Positions 58,347 through 64,000 of a stretch of DNA of 64,000 bases are shown one piece after another. The stretch is from positions 62,001-126,000 of the forward strand of contig LNEI01000009.1 of assembly GCA_001464455.1 (NCBI GenBank), given 5' to 3'. The notes below the pieces were generated by a model. That model was not told the origin of the DNA. It saw nothing but the letters and a program-made list of their open reading frames with translations, and did no database searches. The position numbers and the translations under genes were made by a program. Each line of letters begins with the position of its first letter. Position 1 is the first letter of the stretch. Source of the DNA: Acidobacteria bacterium Ga0077534 (lineage in GTDB: Bacteria > Acidobacteriota > Blastocatellia > Pyrinomonadales > Pyrinomonadaceae).

Positions 58347-58454
58347 ATGCTCTGCGTCCTAATCTCCGCGGGCTCTGCGAGGAATCTTTGTTCGTGGTAA
58401 TTCAGGAATAATTCTTGCGGAGTTCGTCGACCGAAGACGCAGACGTTGATCAAC

Positions 58455-59804
58455 ATGAAAGATGAACCGCGATCCGATGTCCAGAACGTCCCTTTTGCCG
58501 AGGCTTTTCGGTTTTGGCTGAAGCTGGGGTTTATTTCCTTCGGCGGGCCGGCCGGGCAGATCGCGATCATGCACAAAGAGCTGGTCGAAAAGCGTCGCTG
58601 GATGGGCGAATCGCGGTTTTTGCACGCTCTGAACTACTGCATGCTGCTTCCCGGCCCAGAGGCTCAGCAACTCGCCGTCTATATCGGCTGGCTCATGCAC
58701 AAAACGCTCGGCGGCATCGTCGCGGGCGTGTTTTTCGTCCTGCCGTCGGTGATAATTCTGCTCGTACTGTCGTATATTTACGCCGCATTCGGGCACTTGC
58801 CCGCCGTCGACGGAGCTCTTGCCGGTTTTAAACCCGTCGTCGTCGCGATAGTCGTCGAAGCGCTGTTGAAAATAGGCAAAAGGGCCTTGAAACGCTGGGT
58901 TCATTACGGCATTGCGGCCGCTGCCTTCGTCGCGATCTTTGTTGTCAATGTTCCCTTCCCGTTGATCGTCTTCGCCGCCGCGATTGTAGGGCTCGTGGGA
59001 ATGCATTTTCTGCCCGCGTCGTTCATTGCCGCGGAAAAGAAGCCAGATGCCACCGATATTTCACCGGAAGCGGACCGGAAACCGATACTTTCGGACGACA
59101 CCGTTCAGGACCACACCGTTCCGAATAGGTTTCGGCTGTTCAAGATACTCGGCGTCGGCGCCATTTTGTGGATACTTCCCTTTCTGGCACTTATCGCGTG
59201 GAACGGATCGCAGAATCTGCACGTCGAGGAGTATAAATTCTTCTCGATATCGGCACTCGTGACCTTCGGCGGAGCGTACGCCGTGCTCGCATACGTGACC
59301 CAGGCCGTAACGGCCGCGCCGTACAATTGGATAACACCGACCCAGGCCGTCGACGGCCTTGCACTTGCCGAAACAACTCCGGGGCCTTTGATAATGGTGC
59401 TGCAGTTCGTTGGATTTATGGCCGCGTGGAACAATCCTGTCGCCGGAATGTCGCCGCTGGTAAGCGGGATCGTCGGAGCTCTGGTGACGACCTACGCGAC
59501 TTTCCTGCCGTCGTTCCTATTTATCTTCGTCGGTGCACCGTATATCGAGAAGCTTCGAAACAGCCGCCTGCTGACCGGCGCTCTTTCGGGCGTCACCGCT
59601 GCGGTCGTGGGCGTGATCCTAAACCTCGCGCTCGTTTTCGGCCTCGCCGTTATCTACGACAGCGGGCCGGGCACGCTAAATTGGTTCGCGGTCGCCGTCA
59701 GCGTCGCGGCGTTTGTGGTTTTGTACAGATTTAAGGTCGATGTCCTGTTGGTGGTGCTCGGCGGGGGGCTGCTGGGCATCATTTATACGTTTGCAGCCGG
59801 TTAA
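58455..59804 (+). CDS. chrA: Chromate transporter (two-domain ChrA)
   Basis: A 449-residue inner-membrane transporter of the CHR family with two homologous halves of about six helices. The first half has [32 protein letters not shown] and [22 protein letters not shown]; the second has [20 protein letters not shown] and [25 protein letters not shown] and LPGPEAQQ are the family signatures. ChrA exports chromate in characterised members; chromosomal homologues may carry other anions such as sulfate. The ATG at 58455 is preferred to a TTG at 58446. It converges on the SDR gene across a terminator-like hairpin. Confidence 0.92.
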
Positions 59805-61024: not shown

Positions 61025-62686
61025 TCAGATCTCGACGACGGTCGTTACGATAACAGGTTTCGATCCGAGTTCTTTTTGCACGAAACGCTTGAGATGAACC
61101 CGTAGGTTTTCCTTGAACATCGTGCGGTCGCGGACGTGCTCGGGCTTCATGTTAGTGATGGCTTTGACAATAGAATCTCGAGCTTCCTTGCCGAACCCAT
61201 TTATCGGGTCGATGCCGGCGACGCCTTCGAAAGTGATCTGCGGGTCACCGAGTATTTTTGTCGTATTCTTCTCGAGGGCAACGACCAACGAGATGGCGCC
61301 GCCATAGGCGAGTTTCTTTCGCTCGCGAACGGTTTCGTACTCGATCTCTTCCATCGACTCTTCGTCGATGAAGGTCTTATAAAGTTCGCGTTTCTCGACG
61401 ACCTGACAGCTCAGCTCGTCGATCTCGAGGACATTGCCGTTTTCGATGAGCACGATGTTGTCGTCATTGTATCCGGCGACGTGGTTTTTGATAAATTCCT
61501 TTTGGCGGAAGAGCATTCGGTATTCGCCGTGGATCGGGATGACGAATTTGGGCTTCGAGGTCTCAACCATGATGCGAATATCTTCCTGCGAAGCGTGACC
61601 CGAGACGTGGACGAGCCGGCGTTTTTCCTCGATGATATTCGCACCTCGTTTGTAGAGATTGCCGATCAGGCGGCTGATGCTCTTTTCATTGCCGGGAATG
61701 ATCCGGGCAGAAAGCACGACCGTGTCGCCTTTCTCTACCTCCATCCCTTTGTAAACGCCGGTAGCGAGATTCCAAAGGGCAGCCCGCATTTCGCCCTGCG
61801 AACCCGTTACGAGATAACAGATCTCGTCGTCATCGAGCTTGCGTGCGTCGCTAAGTTCGATCATCGTGTCGCCGACAATGTTCAGAAGCCCCATGCCCGA
61901 CGCTATCTCGACATTCTTCTGCATCGACCGCCCGAGCACACAAACGCGTCGTCCGTACTTGCGAGCAATGTCAAAAACGATCTGAAGCCGATGAAGCGAG
62001 GAAGAAAAGGTCGAAACGAACAAACGCCCTTCCGTTTGCTCAAATATCTCTTCGAATGCAGGAATTACCGCCTGTTCGCTCGGAGTTCGACCCGGGACCG
62101 TGGCGTTTGTCGAGTCGCAAAGCAGAGCAAGAACGCCTTCGTCACCAATGCGGCCGAGCATTTCGAGATCGTAGGGCTTCCCTATCACCGGCGTGTCGTC
62201 GATCTTGTAGTCGCCGGTGTGGATGATCGTTCCGACAGGCGTATGGATGGCGAGCGAAAAACATTCGACCAGCGAATGCGACGCATGGATGAACTCGATC
62301 TCAAATACGCCGATCTTGATTCGGTCTTTGGCCTTAACGCGATGCAGGAGCACATCGTTCATCATGTTGTACTCATCCAAGCGCTTCTCAGTCAGAGCCA
62401 AAGTGAAGCGCGAAGAGTAAACTGGCAGGTTAAATTTCTTGAGAATGTAGGACAGCGCCCCGATGTGGTCTTCGTGGCCGTGTGTCAGAATGATAGCGGT
62501 AAGATCGTCGCGATATTCTTCGAGAAAATCAAAATTCGGTATCGAAATATCGACCCCGTAAGGCGTTTCCTCAGGAAAACCCATGCCCGCATCAACGACG
62601 ATCATTTCGCCGCCGTAACGGATTCCCATGCAGTTCATCCCAAATTCGCCAATGCCGCCAAGCGGTATGATCTCTATTTTGCCCAA
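61025..62686 (-). CDS. rnj: Ribonuclease J
   Basis: Metallo-beta-lactamase/beta-CASP nuclease with endo- and 5'-exonuclease activity on RNA. The 553-residue protein has GGIGEFGMNCMGIRYGGEMIVVDAG at the start, the zinc motif LTHGHEDHIGAL (about 69-80), HASHSLVECFSLAI, HTGDYKIDD, CDSTNATVPGRTPSEQ, the beta-CASP region with VTGSQGEMRAAL and HVSGHASQEDI, and the C-terminal domain ending GSKPVIVTTVVEI. Presence of RNase J together with RapZ is notable, since in E. coli RapZ works with RNase E; no RNase E is in this window. It is divergent from the riboswitch transcript. Confidence 0.96.
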   Translation of the reverse strand: MGKIEIIPLGGIGEFGMNCMGIRYGGEMIVVDAGMGFPEETPYGVDISIPNFDFLEEYRDDLTAIILTHGHEDHIGALSYILKKFNLPVYSSRFTLALTEKRLDEYNMMNDVLLHRVKAKDRIKIGVFEIEFIHASHSLVECFSLAIHTPVGTIIHTGDYKIDDTPVIGKPYDLEMLGRIGDEGVLALLCDSTNATVPGRTPSEQAVIPAFEEIFEQTEGRLFVSTFSSSLHRLQIVFDIARKYGRRVCVLGRSMQKNVEIASGMGLLNIVGDTMIELSDARKLDDDEICYLVTGSQGEMRAALWNLATGVYKGMEVEKGDTVVLSARIIPGNEKSISRLIGNLYKRGANIIEEKRRLVHVSGHASQEDIRIMVETSKPKFVIPIHGEYRMLFRQKEFIKNHVAGYNDDNIVLIENGNVLEIDELSCQVVEKRELYKTFIDEESMEEIEYETVRERKKLAYGGAISLVVALEKNTTKILGDPQITFEGVAGIDPINGFGKEARDSIVKAITNMKPEHVRDRTMFKENLRVHLKRFVQKELGSKPVIVTTVVEI

Positions 62687-62759
62687 TTTAACTCCTAAAA
62701 GCTGAAGGAAGAGAATAACATTTTTAACCGTGCTTCGTGCGAGTATCTACGAATTATAC

Positions 62760-62789
62760 TTGACAAAAAAGTCTTGATTGAAATATTCT
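62760..62789 (+). promoter_or_regulatory. Promoter of the manganese riboswitch transcript
   Basis: A perfect TTGACA (62760-62765) and TATTCT (62784-62789) are separated by 18 bases, a few bases ahead of the riboswitch P1 stem. This places the RNA start at about 62796. Confidence 0.7.
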
Positions 62790-62794
62790 CTTTT

Positions 62795-62901
62795 AGGTTC
62801 GGTAGGGGAGTAGACGCCTTGCAGTAAAAAAAGGCTTCCTGATGTCGTCAATACGTTGGCTTTTGTTAGCTGACCGGCGTGGGAAATAAGTTTCGAGACC
62901 T
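62795..62901 (+). promoter_or_regulatory. Manganese riboswitch (yybP-ykoY family)
   Basis: Aptamer hallmarks in order: P1 5' strand AGGTTCG (62795-62801), GGGGAGTAG (62805-62813), hairpin GCCTT-AAGGC (62816-62835), GTCGTCAATACG (62844-62855), a third stem GTTGGC / GCTGAC (62855-62874), and the P1 3' strand CGAGACCT (62894-62901). GGGGAGUAG and GUCGUCAAUACG are the conserved Mn-binding loops known for yybP-ykoY RNAs. The P1 3' strand overlaps the left arm of the terminator that follows, so P1 and the base of the terminator exclude each other. Mn binding should stabilise P1 and allow read-through into the TerB-like gene (ON switch, inferred). Confidence 0.87.
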
Positions 62902-62933
62902 ATCGCGGTAACACATCCGCGATGGGTCTTTTT
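62897..62933 (+). terminator. Riboswitch-controlled intrinsic terminator
   Basis: GACCTATCGCGG (62897-62908) pairs with CCGCGATGGGTC (62917-62928) over 12 positions (one G-T) with an 8-nt loop, followed by TTTTT (62929-62933) and CCTTTT. The first five bases belong also to P1 of the aptamer. It lies 40 bases before the start codon of the TerB-like gene. Confidence 0.88.
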
Positions 62934-62972
62934 CCTTTTCGCGGATAGAGAACGCGTAGGAGGACGAAACTT

Positions 62973-63962
62973 ATGGAAGCTTATGTTAAAGCTGGGCTAG
63001 ATGCGTACAAGAGACGCAGGCAAGCCGAGCAGGAATTTCTGGAACACACCGAACGTGTCAAATGCCTTTTGGGTCTCGAAACCCATGAAAGGCATGAGAC
63101 CGCACTGCTTTTCTTGTCACCGCTCGTATCGATCGCGTGGACCGATGGTCGCGTGGCTCGACATGAACAAGACTACATTTTGCGGGCTGCTGAGATATAC
63201 GGCTTACTCGAAAACGAGTCTGCGTATGCGGTTCTAATGCAGCGACTGCACTCCAAACCACACCATCGCGATATCGAGGTTTGGTGGGATGAGATCACGG
63301 ACGTCTGCCGCATGATGGATTCGGGCGAATGTGCCGCACTTGTATCTCACCTGTATCAGCAGATCAAGTTCATCGGCGAATTTAGTGAGAAATATACATT
63401 TGGCCTCTGGCGAGCTCACCGCCTCGGCGAAAACGAGCAGGAAACGCTCGATCAGTCAGAAAAGCGTATCGCTGAGATCCTTACCGATCAGGCTCGCATT
63501 TCGTCTGACGGCATCAGCGATTCCGAGTTGCTGCGTTTGGTGCCGCTAGTGCGAGTAGCATGGGCAGATGGGAGGGTTACTAAGCGCGAGCGACAGATGA
63601 TCTTCTCCTCTGTCGTTGATATGCACATACCCGAATCTGAACAGAATCTCCGCACGCTTGCCCGTTGGCTTGATATACGTCCCGAGGACGAATTCTTTAA
63701 GGCGGCTCTTCACGGCCTCCGTGATCATTTGGCGAGTCATCCCGAAGATGAATCACGTTCGGCCAAGTACGACATCCTTTCGCGATGTGCAACCGTCGCC
63801 GAAATGTCGGGCGGAAACGGCACTTTCGAGGCTGGGGGTGAGCGCATCTGCGAAGAAGAGATCGACACGGTAAAACACATTGCAAAGATCCTTACTGACG
63901 TTATGGCAGACCCAGATCAGGTCAAACCAAATTCAATAGCGAAAGGAGGCGAAAGGGTTTAA
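62973..63962 (+). CDS. Tandem TerB-like domain protein under Mn riboswitch control
   Basis: A 329-residue soluble protein with two all-helical TerB/DjlA-N-like domains. Each has the hallmark helix pair: LVSIAWTDGRVARHEQDYI (about 51-69) and LVRVAWADGRVTKRERQMI (about 192-210), where the (W-x-D-G-R-V) loop and the following Glu are the conserved, possibly metal-binding part of TerB. The N-terminus is a charged helix (KRRRQAEQEFLEHTERVK). It has no membrane segment. AGGAGG precedes the ATG by 9 bases. The riboswitch upstream ties it to manganese. An AAAGGAGG near its end suggests a further gene just beyond the window, possibly a metal exporter such as TerC, but that is not visible. Confidence 0.85.
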   Translation: MEAYVKAGLDAYKRRRQAEQEFLEHTERVKCLLGLETHERHETALLFLSPLVSIAWTDGRVARHEQDYILRAAEIYGLLENESAYAVLMQRLHSKPHHRDIEVWWDEITDVCRMMDSGECAALVSHLYQQIKFIGEFSEKYTFGLWRAHRLGENEQETLDQSEKRIAEILTDQARISSDGISDSELLRLVPLVRVAWADGRVTKRERQMIFSSVVDMHIPESEQNLRTLARWLDIRPEDEFFKAALHGLRDHLASHPEDESRSAKYDILSRCATVAEMSGGNGTFEAGGERICEEEIDTVKHIAKILTDVMADPDQVKPNSIAKGGERV

Positions 63963-64000
63963 CTGAGCTCGTTTGAGCACTCACTAACCTTAGGTAATTA

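Follow-up and report, generated by a model that had tools for sequence, protein, structure and literature searches.

A compact yybP-ykoY-type riboswitch, very probably manganese-responsive, ahead of a TerB-like gene and alx in an Acidobacteria bacterium

What does a yybP-ykoY-type riboswitch control when the gene directly behind it encodes a soluble TerB-like protein? The question is raised by the last part of a 64,000-nucleotide stretch of Acidobacteria bacterium Ga0077534 (hereafter the window; contig LNEI01000009.1, positions 62,001 to 126,000, forward strand). TerB domains are widespread, and we know of no settled biochemical role for them. In Ter (tellurite) operons, a TerB-domain protein stands beside a TerC-family membrane protein. 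Based on our analysis, it is very probable that a compact Mn riboswitch of the yybP-ykoY type controls a two-gene operon here, the TerB-like gene followed by alx; the ligand, the ON direction and the role of TerB are parts of this reading that we infer. The region 62760-62972 contains a promoter, an aptamer, a terminator and a ribosome site 5' of a 329-aa ORF. In window coordinates, the features are as follows:

62760..62789 (+): sigma-70-like promoter, TTGACA at 62760, -10 AATATT (spacer 16) or TATTCT (spacer 18)
62795..62908 (+): yybP-ykoY-type aptamer, 114 nt, from an alignment of 27 relatives, pair counts and covariance model R1
62800-62806 with 62899-62905 (+): P1 switch helix CGGUAGG/CCUAUCG, one G-U, from the sequence and constrained folds
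62805-62813 (+): L1 GGGGAGUAG, aptamer loop after P1
62816-62820 with 62831-62835 (+): P2, aptamer helix
about 62836-62847 with 62874-62885 (+): P3, aptamer helix
62846-62855 (+): L3 CGUCAAUACG, putative Mn-sensing adenosine at 62850 by analogy
62895..62930 (+): intrinsic terminator, 14 pairs, loop 8, T-rich tail, 5' arm including the P1 3' strand
62958..62963 (+): ribosome site AGGAGG, read from the sequence
62973..63962 (+): TerB-like gene, 329 aa, two TerB/DUF533-like domains
63963..64000 (+): spacer from TerB to alx, which starts 3 bases beyond the window end
64003-65022 (+), that is G000:C9:126003-127022: alx (TerC/Alx family, 339 aa), 40 nt after TerB

The preliminary description of this DNA had named a clear promoter, an AGGAGG site and a P1 stem sharing bases with a terminator, and each of these could be located. 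The promoter scores 10/12 in a consensus scan with either choice of -10 hexamer, and positions 62650-63000 hold 2 promoter-like sites versus 0.3 in shuffles; terminator-like sites in the same kind of scan number 2 versus 0.5. The AGGAGG lies outside both the aptamer and the terminator hairpin, and the ATG at 62973 starts the TerB-like ORF. The 3' strand of P1 (62899-62905) lies within the 5' arm of the terminator. Of 200 shuffles, 199 fold less well than the leader as a whole (z -2.92).

Within the aptamer, the L1 motif GGGGAGUA(G) follows P1 and is invariant in 27/27 aligned rows, which were selected by that motif; the U, C and A of L3 are likewise invariant in all 27 sequences. In crystal structures, the adenosine of the L3 UCA contacts Mn2+ via N7 (PMC6754395, in the part of the text available). 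An early guess at another P1 pairing was rejected because the alignment and the folds favor CGGUAGG/CCUAUCG. When P1 is enforced, the junction of the window aptamer has two stems, as it does in 36 of 48 folded short sites (up to 119 nt) detected by model R1, while three stems are seen in 15 of 21 long ones (of the 73 sites, 4 failed to fold so and 11 gave no countable stem). A four-way junction with P4 was not found in the fold of the window aptamer, and the best P4 candidate, picked by eye, is a hairpin of at most 4 bp (62883-62886/62891-62894) that competes with P3. Since P4 is variable within the R1 family, we do not count it as a defining feature of yybP-ykoY riboswitches. On the basis of these modeled folds, we call the window aptamer a compact three-way-junction variant that appears to have no clear P4. 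Judged by title and opening of the abstract, none of the papers listed reports a P4-less form, although Dambach 2015 and Price 2015, which founded the class, may do so.

Is the element conserved as an RNA? A search for alx in 98 related genomes gave a match in 82, and the 30 best loci were used. Of these, 27 carry GGGGAGTAG upstream on the correct strand, and these 27 rows, chosen by that motif, form alignment A1; L049, L057 and L063 were omitted since the motif is absent from the flank available. In A1, 89.6% of the cells are paired and 18 of the 25 pairs are altered on both sides, P1 (83.7%) and P2 (81.5%) being the less well paired helices. None of 500 shuffles covaries as well, and sliding the partners by one column weakens the signal. 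Model R1 scores 81.5 bits on window positions 62795-62908, a score obtained by construction, R1 having been built with the window sequence among its 27 rows. The covariation and the cross-match to E. coli are free of this circularity: R1, built without E. coli, detects the E. coli alx riboswitch with 31.6 bits (E 3.1e-7 in 13 kb, 2.5e-6 in 107 kb). R1 gives no match on E. coli mntP and thus covers only one branch of the class. At E<=0.01, it locates 73 sites in 59 of the 162 genomes of this bacterial class. Of the three alx loci left out of A1, L049 (in G063) and L057 were each given a site by R1, and L063 was not. Over a sample of the phylum, sites occur in 26 of 396 genomes (E<=0.001); three sites fall in other classes. 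The L1 motif alone was rejected as evidence, as a scan of the window's own genome, allowing at most one mismatch, produced 20 matches versus 88 in a reversed control; the only exact match in that scan is the window site. The yybP-ykoY riboswitch named in the preliminary description is therefore confirmed by the 18 covarying pairs and the E. coli cross-match as real and well conserved.

The preliminary description had also held that an Rfam RF00080 match should be seen and that its absence would speak against the riboswitch. RF00080 gave no match here at the gathering score, none at E<=10 in 451 bases, and none across the whole genome. Read formally, this counts against the element, but the E. 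coli K-12 alx riboswitch (L076 870-1004), which served as the positive control, was equally unmatched at E<=10, and even E. coli mntP (L254 5462-5558) reached only 41.6 bits, below the model's own cut-off of 45. Since the E. coli alx riboswitch is also missed, the silence of RF00080 refutes nothing here, and we dropped the model as a yes/no test. Over the 98 relatives, no match exceeded the cut-off, and the 10 weak ones (E<=1) sit elsewhere than the R1 sites. The RF00080 consensus shows the GUCAACAUACUUG-type L3 of mntP, where the window has CGUCAAUACG and E. coli alx has CGUCAUUACG. From these sequence comparisons, the Rfam model appears to miss one branch of the class.

The closest known counterpart is the alx riboswitch of E. 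coli K-12, which shares with the window the L1 GGGGAGUA, the L3 CGUCANUACG with CCGG opposite, a GAGACC 3' P1 strand and an Alx-family gene downstream. It differs in having a long P4, with three junction stems when P1 is enforced, and alx as the first gene behind the riboswitch; the window aptamer has two stems and is separated from alx by the TerB gene. As for the switching step, the yybP-ykoY element of L. lactis is a transcriptional ON switch in which Mn2+ stabilizes P1.1, whose 3' segment otherwise joins an intrinsic terminator (PMC11087558, accessible text); the window shares the overlap of the P1 3' strand with a terminator. The L3 UCA of L. lactis (PMC6754395, as excerpted) also resembles that of the window, a likeness drawn from the description and not from the letters. 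The solved structures, unlike the window aptamer, have a four-way junction.

We suggest a plausible mechanism for the window element along these lines. In the leader, the terminator fold is favored over the P1 fold by about 14 kcal/mol (-50.7 versus -36.3), which should make OFF the default state and require Mn2+ to act while the RNA is being transcribed. At low Mn2+, the strong terminator would capture the P1 3' strand, and transcription would end ahead of both genes. Mn2+ bound between L1 and L3 would hold P1, the terminator would form too late, and the TerB-like gene and alx would be made. Alx would then lower or redistribute cytosolic Mn2+, by export or by metalation of exported enzymes, and the TerB-like protein would most likely act beside it as a soluble partner in the cytosol, though an optional one. 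Mn2+ as the ligand and ON as the direction appear well founded, and the former is supported by association because TerC/Alx proteins and P-type ATPases, families known as Mn-riboswitch targets (PMC13274385 and PMC10550928, in the portions available), lie downstream. If the element instead acted mainly on translation, or sensed another metal or pH, the hairpin would be incidental. Members of the class can act on translation (PMC13274385, likewise in part), and Mn2+ is assigned to the window element by inference, both of which leave room for such a reading. It is nevertheless highly improbable in our judgment: a hairpin with a T-rich tail shares the P1 3' strand at 72 of the 73 R1 sites, the AGGAGG lies beyond aptamer and hairpin, the letters of the metal site are conserved, and the genes downstream belong to known Mn exporter families.

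The gene following position 64000, which the preliminary description had left to the full contig, is alx (TIGR03718, 402.6 bits, above the cut-off of 246.4). The spacer from TerB to alx contains no promoter- or terminator-like site in the scan, and a terminator-like site is found 3' of alx. The earlier claim that the switch controls a soluble protein and not a membrane exporter is accordingly weakened, since alx belongs to the same operon; the finding is also less surprising now that the usual exporter turns out to lie 40 nt behind TerB. The preliminary description had further suggested that TerB either takes part in manganese handling or regulates a partner transporter, and it is the partner alternative that gains from the identity of the next gene. 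Around the operon, we also observed a 386-aa protein downstream of alx (L001 3326-4486) with EF-hand-like DxNGNGxI repeats by eye, flanked by anti-sigma-like and sigma-factor-like ORFs, and, about 3 kb upstream, a chromate transporter family gene (window 58446-59804; PF02417, 263.2 bits).

The two TerB-like domains noted previously are borne out by Pfam, as the protein exceeds the cut-offs of both PF04391 (38.2; cut-off 29.6) and PF05099 (31.4; cut-off 24.4). In a six-frame search of the genome, TerB is the sole PF05099 match, scoring 23.4 there, just below 24.4. TerD is absent, with 0 PF02342 matches in the genome; the control was positive in 2 of 14 genomes. The present locus thus departs from the Ter pairing in its two TerB/DUF533 domains, in having a TerC of the Alx subfamily and a Mn riboswitch, and in the lack of TerD from the genome. 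An AWxDGR...E motif is repeated in TerB in a six-sequence alignment. Against G038, pN is 0.100 and pS 0.779 for TerB, and 0.066 and 0.690 for alx, with synonymous sites near saturation; from these values, TerB appears to evolve under strong constraint. The C-terminal domain is modeled as all helical (pLDDT 87.3), with no PDB match at E<=0.001. The full-length model from 6 sequences is poor (pLDDT 60.7), which makes its fold search meaningless, and a sequence profile search for structures gave no clear relative among its 3 matches (best E 0.3). Cys 272 and 293, which do not vary among the 6 close TerB proteins, were considered as metal ligands and rejected, being kept in only 22/61 and 7/61 wider homologs.

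Does TerB keep company with alx elsewhere? The order riboswitch-TerB-alx occurs in 6 genomes (G000, which is the window's own, G038, G032, G033, G025 and G030), alx followed by TerB occurs in 3 further riboswitch operons (G124, G028, G122), and in G031 and G066 TerB adjoins alx with no riboswitch detected. In the relatives, 9 of 25 TerB-like genes (26 matches, two pieces of one G031 gene being merged) have an alx no more than 1 kb away, in every case on their own strand, versus 0.032 expected by a random placing that ignores shared descent. The five closest named TerB homologs (L161-L164, L168) have R1 before and alx after; we take these as the same genomes as G038, G025, G033, G030 and G032 and not as further cases. 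Among the remaining named loci, the full-length homologs L165-L167 (28-33% identity) have neither R1 nor alx in the flanks examined, and the other 71 yield an alx-like match in L221 and L232 and a weak R1 match in L201 (18.1 bits, E 0.065). TerB is dispensable, as most R1 sites lead to alx without it. A divergent RNase J gene lies beside the element both with TerB (L036, L037, L038, L051) and without (e.g., L056, L064). Because the same RNase J-flanked site bears riboswitch-alx without TerB, TerB would be an optional accessory of a Mn-controlled Alx. The alx tree, from which G030 was omitted since its alx is cut, requires 3 changes of TerB state, at least 2 of them forced by well-supported branches; TerB therefore came or went more than once.

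The targets of R1 sites give a wider view of this slot. Operons were called by a simple script that joined genes on one strand across gaps of at most 450 nt and labeled them by BLAST, and an operon may count in several classes. Of the 73 sites, 53 lead to alx and 9 to TerB. At 10 sites the operon includes htpX (M48 peptidase; L150, L156, L157, L158, L149, L112, L129, L140, L127, L137), followed by alx at 8. The remaining classes are a secreted family without an assignment (7), Sbt_1 (5), DUF2490 (5), UspA (5) and P-type ATPase (5), the last two together in 4, carbonic anhydrase (2) and a CNNM-like gene (1); the names UspA, P-type ATPase and CNNM are putative, given by reading the sequences. 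No gene was called at 3 of the 73 sites; at G114 alx lies just past the gap limit, and G036 stops at the contig end. At the P-type-ATPase-like loci (L135, L138, L139, L142, L143), a UspA-like gene lies in between in 4 of 5. The window's genome has a second R1 riboswitch (G000:C18:659171-659277, minus strand, L107; 73.8 bits) with the same terminator layout; its operon encodes a secreted protein that falls into no Pfam family, a second protein of 126 aa, and a member of the Sbt_1 (bicarbonate transporter) superfamily. R1 also stands 5' of carbonic-anhydrase genes with a signal-peptide-like start in L110 (G019:C34; PF00484, 125.1 bits) and L118 (G106:C2), the latter gene being followed by an Sbt_1-like gene. 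A link of Mn with inorganic carbon at the carbonic-anhydrase sites is possible.

Our best guess, from gene neighborhoods and protein sequences, is that TerB is a soluble partner of Alx; the recurrence in differing orders, the selection on the protein and the absence of TerD count for such a partnership. In a more specific form, which we put forward tentatively, TerB would be made only at high Mn2+ and would serve Alx as a dedicated cytosolic Mn partner, a subunit that binds the metal and acts in loading or gating. A comparison with B. subtilis is useful in this regard. There, HtpX co-purifies with the TerC proteins MeeF and MeeY (PMC10550928, accessible portion), so that a TerC family protein has a quality-control partner; in the window, the accessory is TerB-like and not a protease. 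Because HtpX occupies the same slot elsewhere, its co-purification makes a functional reading of the riboswitch-alx slot plausible.

TerB might instead be a passenger between riboswitch and alx, co-expressed with it and playing no part in Mn handling. The RNase J-flanked site without TerB, the repeated changes of TerB state on the alx tree and the occupation of the same slot by unrelated genes (htpX, UspA) all fit this idea, yet a passenger would hardly be expected to keep its protein sequence as TerB does, or to adjoin alx in more than one order and even where no riboswitch is detected; the slot-mate htpX, moreover, makes functional sense given the B. subtilis result. We regard the passenger reading as somewhat unlikely. 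A little less likely still is a general role for TerB in envelope or metal stress, in which it would benefit from Mn induction without contacting Alx. Generic TerB domains are indeed widespread without alx, 72 of the 79 named loci having no alx match, but against this, the window's TerB is the sole PF05099 match in a genome lacking TerD, and its close homologs sit with alx. The main texts of PMC10550928 and PMC13274385, in the parts available, make no mention of TerB. A literature search by title and abstract start found nothing joining TerB with a Mn riboswitch among the matches listed, which is a weak test of novelty.

What remains new is the recurrent TerB-Alx pair under Mn control, together with the compact aptamer branch. 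The alignment and folds bring out a compact, P4-less branch of Mn riboswitches in this Acidobacteriota class, one that the current Rfam model misses. If TerB is the dedicated partner of Alx, it would gain an assignable metal, a regulator and a partner, and could serve as a model for TerB beside TerC proteins generally. The recurrence of TerB beside Alx under a Mn riboswitch, with TerD missing from the window's genome, supplies a definite metal and a definite partner to test, and hints that TerB-like proteins may help to handle manganese.
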